Source: Allopusillimonas soli
Lineage (GTDB): Bacteria; Pseudomonadota; Gammaproteobacteria; Burkholderiales; Burkholderiaceae_B
Assembly: GCF_004153445.1 (NCBI RefSeq)
Contig: NZ_SDQC01000005.1
Location: 248,001 to 312,000 of the forward strand
DNA: 64,000 bases
Direction: 5' to 3'
Below the pieces are notes generated by a model that worked only from the letters and a program-made list of their open reading frames with translations, was not told the DNA's origin and ran no database searches. Both the position numbers and the translations under genes were made by a program. Positions 21,764-23,868 of the stretch are shown here, one piece after another. Position 1 is the first letter of the stretch, and each line of letters opens with the position of its first letter.

Positions 21764-21849
21764 TGGTGCCCGAGACCGGAATCGAACCGGTACGATCAAA
21801 GATCGAGGGATTTTAAGTCCCTTGTGTCTACCAATTCCACCACTCGGGC
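21764..21849 (-). tRNA. tRNA-Leu (anticodon UAA)
   Basis: An 86-base leucine tRNA with encoded CCA. The acceptor GCCCGAG pairs with CTCGGGC, the TpsiC arm reads CCGGTTCGATTCCGG, and the anticodon loop CTTAAAA gives UAA. The long variable arm is as expected for class II tRNAs. No intron, although this is the tRNA that carries a group I intron in many cyanobacteria at the position where the neighbouring tRNA-Ser is interrupted here. Confidence 0.96.
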
Positions 21850-21973: not shown

Positions 21974-22287
21974 TGGCGGAAGGTCAGGGATTCGAACCCT
22001 GGAGGGGCTTGCGCCCCTGCCGGTTTTCCTTGCCACTATAGCTTTCGCTACCAGGCTGCACGCCTGTTTGATGGTCTGGACTTTGTCTTCGCCGTGACCC
22101 TGCGGGTTTTAGGCGGGAGCCGTCAAGTCTCTACACGTTCCTGATCAGGCCAGGCTTCGCTCGGCGTTGCCTCGGACATGCGCATATCCAGGGGGTTCGC
22201 CGAATTTGACTCCTTACATCCACCACGTTTCCATGGCGGCGCTCGATTGAACAAGACCGGTGCATTCGACCACTCTGCCAACCTTCC
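21974..22287 (-). tRNA. tRNA-Ser (anticodon UGA), interrupted by a group I intron
   Basis: Two exons, 22253-22287 and 21974-22028 on the minus strand, join to a 90-base serine tRNA with encoded CCA. Acceptor GGAAGGT pairs with ACCTTCC, discriminator G, TpsiC arm CAGGGTTCGAATCCCTG, long variable arm AGGGGCGCAAGCCCCT. Joining after U34 restores anticodon loop CUUGAAA with stem CCGGU/ACCGG, hence anticodon UGA. The 224-base insert is annotated separately. The gene follows the nhaA stop by 18 bases on the same strand and precedes tRNA-Leu(UAA). A tRNA scanner without intron handling could miss or truncate it. Confidence 0.93.
22029..22252 (-). ncRNA. Group I self-splicing intron (IC3, Azoarcus-like) in tRNA-Ser(UGA)
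   Basis: A 224-base insertion between U34 and G35 of the anticodon, with no open reading frame. Hallmarks on the minus strand: 5' exon ends in U and the intron ends in G. P1 is CUUG/CGAG with a U-G wobble at the splice site. P2 is CCGCCAUG-GAAA-CGUGGUGG with a GNRA loop. The core is GUCAAAUUCGGCGAA paired through UCGGCG/CGCCGA, with GGCAACGCCGAGC. P7 is GACUU/AAGUC within GUGUAGAGACUUGACGG and AAAGUCCAG. P9 is UAGC-GAAA-GCUA. These blocks closely match, from memory, the Azoarcus tRNA-Ile intron, one of the smallest known ribozymes. Splicing activity is inferred. Confidence 0.9.
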
Positions 22288-22305: not shown

Positions 22306-23688
22306 TTATGCCGACGAGGGATCCGGGCCACGGGAATGCGACCTTGTCCTGCGCACAACAACTGCCCTGCCCCATGCAAGCCCGAGTAGCGCGGACAGGA
22401 CCGAGGCCATCAGCACGCCCAGCTTGGCGGCCGCGAGAAGATTAAGGTTCTGAAAGGCCAGCGTGGCAATGAAGATGGACATCGTGAAGCCTATGCCCGC
22501 CAACAGGCCCACCAGCCAGACCGCCGGCCAGTTCATTCCTTCCGGAAGCTGGCAGCCGCCCACGCGTACGGCCAGCCAGCTTGCCGCCACGACGCCCATC
22601 GGCTTGCCCAGCGCCAGCGCCACCAACACGCCAGCCAGAACTGCGCGGGAGCCATCGGCAGCCAGATTGATACCATCCAGCGTGACACCCGCATTCGCCA
22701 GTGCGAACAAGGGCATCACGCCAAACGCCACCCAGGGATGGAGCGCCATTTGTACTCGGGTAACCGGAGGCAACATGTCGCGCTGCGCAAGCCGAAGCTG
22801 CCTGAGCGGTACGCCAAGATGATGAGGGTCGTGCTCAGCGCCGGCCTGACGTGCCTGCAGATCTCCGACGGCGCTGGCGGCGAGATGGAGTGGCGCGTGA
22901 TGCGCCGGACGCAAGGCAACAGGCGTCAGGAGACCCAGCACGACCCCGGCAAGCGTGGGATGGGCGCCCGTCATGAGCAGGCCGGTCCAGAGTACCGCCC
23001 CCGGCACGATATAAGCGAGGGCGGAGCCCGCGCCGACACGCTGCAAGCCCAGCACCATGGCTATGCCCAGCGCCGCCACTGCCAGGCCAGTGTAGTCGAG
23101 ACCGCCGGAATAGAACAGGGCGATGATGAGCACGGCGACGATGTCATCGATAATGGCCAGCGCCAGCAGAAATATACGCACGCTGCCCGGAATGGCGCGC
23201 CCAAGCAGCGCCAGCACCCCTACGGCAAAGGCAATGTCGGTGGCGGTGGGCACGGCCCAGCCCACGCGTGTGGCGGGGTCCGTATTGAAAACGAGATATA
23301 TCGCCGCCGGCAGCAATACGCCGCCCACTGCTGCGGCCAGCGGGAGACTCGCAAGGCGGATGCTGGCCAGGGCGCCTTCGTGAATCTCGCGCCGTATCTC
23401 CATGCCCACGACCAGGAAGAATACCGTCATGAGGGCGTCGTTGATCCAGAAATGCAGCGACTGCACATAGGAGAAACCGCCGATGTCGACGCCGATGCGC
23501 GCATGCCAAAGCGCATGATAGCTGTCGCTGTAGGGAGAGTTTGCCCAGATGAGGGCAGCGGCGGCGGCAATCAGCAGCAATATGCCGCTGACGGCTTCGA
23601 TGTGCAGGAACCGGGACAGCGCGGCGAATGCGTTCTCGGCGAATACCTGCGCGCGCGGCGGGGTGCGGTGAGGGAAATTGCTGGCCAT
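22306..23688 (-). CDS. nhaA: Na+/H+ antiporter NhaA
   Basis: A 460-residue inner-membrane antiporter that exports sodium in exchange for protons. Family motifs are [36 protein letters not shown] near the N-terminus (key: ASGI-L-ANS-Y), the [12 protein letters not shown] segment, the [17 protein letters not shown] discontinuous-helix motif and [19 protein letters not shown] with the paired ion-binding aspartates. It is somewhat longer than the E. coli protein because of a polar loop around residues 270-300 rich in His and Arg. The stop codon is 18 bases before the tRNA-Ser gene on the same strand. Confidence 0.95.
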
Positions 23689-23868
23689 GGTCGCAATGTC
23701 TCCGCGCGGCGGCCCGACCTGCGCTTGAACCTGCCCACTGCACCGTGCAATGCGACACCCGGCGCAATTCTAACCGAGTTCGCGAGCGCGATGCCAGCCC
23801 TTTGCCAAACTGGCGCCAAAGCGCTGTGACGGTAATAATGACGGTTTGACCCATTTGCAGGAGCAAGT

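Follow-up and report, generated by a model that had tools for sequence, protein, structure and literature searches.

A group I intron in the sole tRNA-Ser(UGA) gene found in the genome of Allopusillimonas soli

Introduction

Group I introns interrupt tRNA-Leu(UAA) genes of cyanobacteria and plastids, and their guanosine-binding helix is P7. A 2002 paper by Rudi, to go by its title, reportedly deals with a tRNA gene travelling with its intron in the Leu(UAA) case.

The accessible parts of the tRNAscan-SE 2.0 paper name fMet and Ile2 tRNAs as hosts (PMC8450103), those of a review of tRNA genes name fMet and Leu (PMC4033280), and those of a cyanobacterial survey claim Arg, Gly and Lys hosts, with inserts of only 22-49 nt (PMC5733544). 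No serine host is named in the accessible parts of a review of bacterial group I introns (PMC3984707), a 2025 database paper (PMC11835236) or a survey of archaea (PMC6125680). As described in the available portions of these PMC papers, the cyanobacterial tRNA-fMet introns resemble the intron reported here in being of group I and in interrupting an essential tRNA in its anticodon loop; they differ in that some contain reading frames (PMC5733544), for which an intron of 224 nt has no room. The literature searched, which covered few subscription papers, yielded no description of a group I intron in a bacterial tRNA-Ser gene.

Here we analyse a locus in Allopusillimonas soli for which a group I intron inside tRNA-Ser(UGA) had been predicted from the sequence (the original prediction). 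The window is the whole stretch of 64,000 nucleotides that was analysed (contig NZ_SDQC01000005.1, positions 248,001 to 312,000), and all coordinates without a locus or contig label refer to it.

Results

With introns allowed, ARAGORN identified a tRNA-Ser(UGA) gene at 22287-21974 on the minus strand that is interrupted after U34 by a 224-nt intron, in agreement with the host and insertion point predicted. The 5' exon (22253..22287, minus strand, as are all parts of the gene given below) ends in ...GGUCUU, the last base being U34, and over its first 36 bases the joined tRNA matches the genome exactly here. The intron (22029..22252) starts with GUUC and ends with AAG, its terminal G being 22029. 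The 3' exon (21974..22028) runs from G35, has a long variable arm and encodes CCA; it is supported both by ARAGORN and by the identity of the joined exons with an uninterrupted gene (see below). The next gene downstream is a tRNA-Leu(UAA) (21764..21849, minus strand; ARAGORN and Rfam), uninterrupted as originally stated. In its default run ARAGORN reported nothing at the serine locus and saw only tRNA-Leu(UAA) and tRNA-Leu(GAG) in the window, and the default Rfam scan of the window missed the intron, whose RF00028 score is under the gathering score. The interruption of tRNA-Ser(UGA) by a group I intron is real, chance being excluded by the interruption of the same site in 10 other genomes and by covariation.

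The Rfam group I intron model RF00028 matched 22262-22059 (minus strand) over all 253 model positions with 28.2 bits (E 5.1e-5 for the genome, E 2.3e-5 for the window stretch against all families), so that a covariance-model match exists below the gathering score of 50. This curated score for group I introns is also missed by the tRNA-Ile(CAU) intron of genome G643 (49.1 bits), which we take to be of the crystallised Azoarcus type, and we therefore did not treat the RF00028 score as a defining feature. The G643 score comes from a scan of ten loci together with an E value limit of 0.01, in which two serine introns scored 46.7 and 45.7 bits and one Arg intron 34.1 bits. Six of the ten did not reach significance at this limit with RF00028, three of them in serine hosts (L176, L178 and L332). 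The public model is weak for the tRNA-intron subgroup. The R1 model, of 23 introns, gave 140.9 bits (E 2.3e-33) for the window, a score that is high partly by construction since the window's intron is among the 23. The G643 and window introns share 140 identities over 190 aligned positions. The R1 model and a tree of 92 introns point to kinship, in sequence and host, with the IC3 tRNA introns of Ile(CAU), Leu(UAA) and Arg(CCU); the window intron itself is presumed to belong to IC3. There is no sign of a homing endonuclease, the intron being 224 nt long and overlapped by no reading frame of at least 150 aa.

In P1, drawn by hand from the sequence, the guide GAGCGCC (22238..22244) pairs with the exon end GGUCUU (22258-22253), with one bulged C and with U34 opposite G at 22244 as a U.G wobble. 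The guide is GAGCGCC or GAGCGCU in 10 of the 11 serine introns found and GAGCCC in the eleventh. The adjoining bases UC (22245..22246) can form P10 with G35-A36 (22028-22027), and in 11/11 serine introns C lies opposite G35 and U opposite A36. P2 is the hairpin GCCAUG-GAAA-CGUGGU (22222..22237), present with its GAAA loop in the unconstrained fold. P3 consists of GGAGUC (22208..22213) and GGCUCC (22116..22121), P4 of UUCGGC (22199..22204) and GCCGAG (22160..22165), and P7 of GACUU (22125..22129) and AAGUC (22079..22083). P5 and P5a occupy 22170..22194, with conserved P5 pairs between 22194-22193 and 22171-22170, and P6 and P6a occupy 22136..22159, with conserved P6 pairs between 22159-22158 and 22137-22136. 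P8 (22090..22115) joins CGCC at 22115-22112 to GGCG at 22093-22090. The P9 region (22030..22074), which lies outside the pair count, contains CCAU/GUGG and two hairpins seen in the unconstrained fold, CAGGC..GCCUG and a GAAA-capped UAGC/GCUA. The U-G wobble in P1, the GNRA-capped P2, P7, the GAAA-capped P9, the terminal G and the core motif blocks of the original prediction are thus all present in the sequence.

Covariation supports this core. Pairs were counted over 23 aligned introns, 25 pairs and six helices (575 cells), the helices having been drawn on these same sequences, and 99.0% of the cells in the core P3-P8, including the P3/P7 pseudoknot, are standard pairs. P3 and P7 are 100% paired although they are pseudoknotted, P4 is 95.7% paired, and three of the five P7 pairs are compensated. 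Across the 23 introns, compensatory changes on both sides affect 13 of the 25 pairs (109 cells), the covariation score is 0.500 compared to 0.153 in shuffles, and shifts of 1-3 columns lower the paired cells to 27.7-40.5%. Two of five covariation measures, the counts of pairs and of types, were not above shuffles. The terminal G and the U.G at the 5' splice site are each kept in 11/11 serine introns.

Compared through G643, the tRNA-Ile(CAU) intron is alike in its core, its GNRA-capped P2, four of the five P7 pairs and the terminal G, but it differs in its tRNA-Ile host, its insertion after CAU, its guide GUG and its place in a starred clade of its own. Leu(UAA) introns share the insertion after U34, as the original prediction noted, as well as the exon end CUU and a class II tRNA host, whereas their P10 pairs U with A35 (C with G35 in serine). 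Those of the family also have the guide GAGCCC or GAGCCU, in place of GAGCGCC in the window, and other P3 and P7 letters. Proteobacterial tRNA-Arg(CCU) introns have the same P6 letters, four of the five P7 pairs and the stretch AACGUGUAGAGACU, but differ in host, guide (GGG) and P3 letters. Serine introns have the P3 letters GGAGUC/GGCUCC, where one finds mostly CCCGUC/GGCGGG in Leu and GCGCUU/AGGCGC in Arg introns, and P7 reads GACUU/AAGUC, GAGCA/UGCUC and mostly GACUC/GAGUC, respectively.

The precursor would fold into the usual group I core. A guanosine at P7 would attack the bond after U34, marked by the U.G at the end of P1, and the freed U34 would then attack behind the terminal G (22029), with the P10 pairing of UC and G35-A36 as its guide. 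We infer from sequence that the intron would be self-splicing, and the same holds for both reactions and for how efficiently they would run in the cell. The nucleotide that precedes the guide is paired with the one that opens the 3' exon, and this pair depends on the host: it is C with G35 in 11/11 serine introns and U with A in 130/131 usable rows from other hosts (91/92 Leu(UAA), 24/24 Arg, 10/10 CAU and 5/5 Leu(CAA)). In this count 22 rows were unusable, rows with other ARAGORN labels were left out, some loci remain twice, and six rows were set aside as repeats, one of them (L249) wrongly, as its listed ends fit A-U. The pattern indicates that P10 is co-adapted to the host tRNA.

A serine host with the intron at the same site was found in 11 genomes from three families, which is a lower bound. 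The host is therefore unusual, as originally claimed, without being unique. In the family sample, a blastn search with the window intron (E 0.001) matched 70 of 268 genomes; at least the Leu(UAA) intron of G029 escaped this search and was found by the model. ARAGORN assigned the intron to tRNA-Ser(UGA) in nine of the 268 (G000, which is the source genome, G083, G102, G104, G105, G208, G209, G210 and G224). The other family matches are mostly in Leu(UAA), with some in Arg(CCU), one in a CAU gene (read as Ile) and one without a tRNA call (L241, at a contig end); every listed place was read. The model matched 61 of 399 genomes in the order sample (E 0.001), adding a serine host from another family (G427, 68% complete; 69/73 rows read, two of them, L303 and L326, without a tRNA call). 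The class sample (35/369 genomes, E 1e-8) added a serine host from a third family (G931), with 29 new loci and two already-read rows covered out of 40 rows and eight loci lacking a tRNA call. The phylum sample (32/349 genomes, E 1e-8) gave no further serine host among the places read (32/35 rows, 10 seen before).

Seven rows that ARAGORN labelled as Ser(UGA) (L317, L321, L358, L366 and L368) or as another serine tRNA (L318 and L354) were dropped before counting, because their D-arms and 3' exons read as Ile(CAU) or Leu(UAA); L317 was re-read from the full sequence and the other six only from their listed ends. L271, labelled tRNA-Pro, was read as Ile(CAU). A pattern scan of genome contigs, with a pattern that also fits intact genes, found the intron in one of the 118 stretches listed (L078, Pusillimonas sp. 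MFBS29, genome G210); most other 'interrupted' flags are intact genes with a changed stem pair. At four places (L060, L105, L136 and L164) a tRNA-Ser 5' half gives way to other sequence within the anticodon arm or directly behind it; these are possibly integration remnants. L303 (G442) is an intron core without recognisable tRNA halves, perhaps a decayed copy.

Other hosts were also observed. The source genome has a second such intron, 231 nt long, whose host is an additional tRNA-Leu(CAA) gene (L547:9205-9520, minus strand; G000:C10 near 615801-615947). An intact tRNA-Leu(CAA) is 2.2 kb away from this gene; also nearby are an OLD-type nuclease, a DNA methylase, a DUF6119 gene and a frame that by eye resembles an integrase and has no Pfam match. 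The 5' splice site of its intron has C opposite G, not U.G. Leu(CAA) is a host in four genomes (G000, G427, G607 and G660). In the order sample, L304, L305, L307, L309, L311, L320 and L322 are tRNA-Ile(CAU)-like and carry another, longer kind of intron, which according to ARAGORN lies between U33 and C34. Group I-like introns also occur in tRNA-Thr(UGU) (L310 and L316) and apparently in tRNA-Asn(GUU) (L324 and L325), neither of which was, to our knowledge, a host known beforehand.

The same tRNA occurs with the intron in the 11 genomes and without it in relatives (four congeners, G120 and G200). The joined exons are identical to the uninterrupted gene of G120, from another genus (90/90 bases), and the joined exons of G208 are identical to the uninterrupted gene of G200. 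Within the genus the intron is present in one of five genomes. In each of the four congeners the genes for tRNA-Ser(UGA) and tRNA-Leu(UAA) are adjacent and both uninterrupted, with the same dehydrogenase gene next to them, and the serine gene of the window differs from theirs by 21-22 bases. A strict pattern for intact tRNA-Ser(UGA) matched 43 of the 268 family genomes, being too strict to count empty sites. The joined exons of G083 (genus g7) are the same as those of G104 and G105 (genus g9) and differ from those of the five uninterrupted congeners compared at 15-20 of 90 bases. This sharing of exons, together with the differences from congeners, suggests joint transfer of the tRNA gene and its intron. 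We tentatively propose, at somewhat short of even confidence, that a separate tRNA-Ser(UGA) intron lineage moves between genera with the tRNA gene and displaces the resident allele. Vertical descent with losses is a possible alternative history.

As to the surroundings, an nhaA antiporter gene (22306-23760), with an nhaA-I RNA motif (23760-23705, minus strand), lies between the tRNA-Ser gene and the dehydrogenase gene in the window; in the four congeners the tRNA-Ser and dehydrogenase genes are within ~0.2 kb of each other.

A different origin, compatible with a functional intron, would be that a tRNA-Leu(UAA) intron of the family jumped to the neighbouring serine gene. In its favour, the two introns share the insertion point and the CUU exon end, and both tRNA genes lie within ~0.7 kb in 9/9 family genomes with a serine intron. 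However, the tree of 92 introns unites the 11 serine introns in a single group (90/68; bootstrap support not settled), outside the starred clade of 30 that holds the family Leu(UAA) introns (26 Leu(UAA) and 4 Leu(CAA)), with further Leu(UAA) introns placed elsewhere. L332 (G931) sits on a long branch, and removal of six long rows gave the serine group support of 98/95. Furthermore, serine introns agree with Arg introns, and not with these Leu introns, in P6 and in most of P7; their P7 is also nearly that of Ile introns. An AU test did not reject the joining of the serine introns with the family Leu clade (p 0.16). With its own tree group and its own P1/P10 pairing, the serine intron is not plainly the neighbouring Leu(UAA) intron moved, and we consider such a jump, for which the tree gave no support, rather improbable.

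Carriage by mobile elements was searched in three collections. There were 0 matches in 50,697 phage records, and 15 of 72,556 plasmid records matched weakly, none over 80% of the query. Among 120 pattern matches listed from IMG/VR, two passed a crude core filter and one was real: L442:8391-8724 is a tRNA-Ser(UGA) with a 244-nt intron beside prophage-like frames, and its serine gene may be host flank.

The source genome is a draft of 18 contigs with a completeness of 99.99% and 44 tRNA matches, 43 of them above the cut-off. No second tRNA-Ser(UGA) was found in it; the other serine anticodons are CGA, GGA and GCU, all in intact genes. The two exon halves match exactly nowhere else in the genome, and away from this locus the joined exons match best to the Ser(CGA) gene, over 37 bases at 89%, with all other matches at most 20 bases long. 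The joined tRNA-Ser would read UCA, which accounts for 28 of 12,482 codons in 28 long frames of the window (some of them possibly spurious), and growth should depend on splicing.

This bears on whether the intron has decayed or depends on a protein, such that the fold is kept while excision needs a host protein or hardly works. The low Rfam score is in line with such a state, and so is the unconstrained fold (z -2.96), from which P3, P7, the D-arm and the anticodon arm are missing and in which exon pairs with intron. Set against them are the compensatory pairs, terminal G, P1 U.G and P10 kept across diverged relatives, and, as no other gene for this tRNA was found, decay should be lethal unless the cell has another way of reading UCA. 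We regard decay or protein dependence as very unlikely. A pseudogene or assembly artefact with UCA read by another tRNA is hardly credible even in a draft genome, given its completeness, a similar interruption in 10 further genomes, exons identical to an uninterrupted gene, the use of UCA and the lack of any other tRNA found with a UGA anticodon.

Discussion

The feature is very probably a functional group I (IC3-like) intron between U34 and G35 of the only tRNA-Ser(UGA) gene found in the genome, a reading drawn from sequence comparison. Comparison supports its anatomy, boundaries and predicted structure, the absence of a second gene among those found and the host-specific co-adaptation. The intron is of a known kind, and its host, tRNA-Ser, is new and probably unreported.

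Serine thereby joins the hosts of tRNA introns in bacteria. The gene escaped the tRNA and Rfam scans run at default settings, so genomes of this kind can look as if they were without tRNA-Ser(UGA). The host-specific P10 pair, G-C in serine and A-U in other hosts, is a natural test of the adaptation of an intron to its host. If an intron lineage does move between genera with its tRNA gene, the tie between an essential tRNA and a ribozyme could last because its loss takes precise excision or a new replacement. The presence of intron-bearing and intron-free species in one genus makes the gain, loss and cost of ribozyme-dependent decoding testable.
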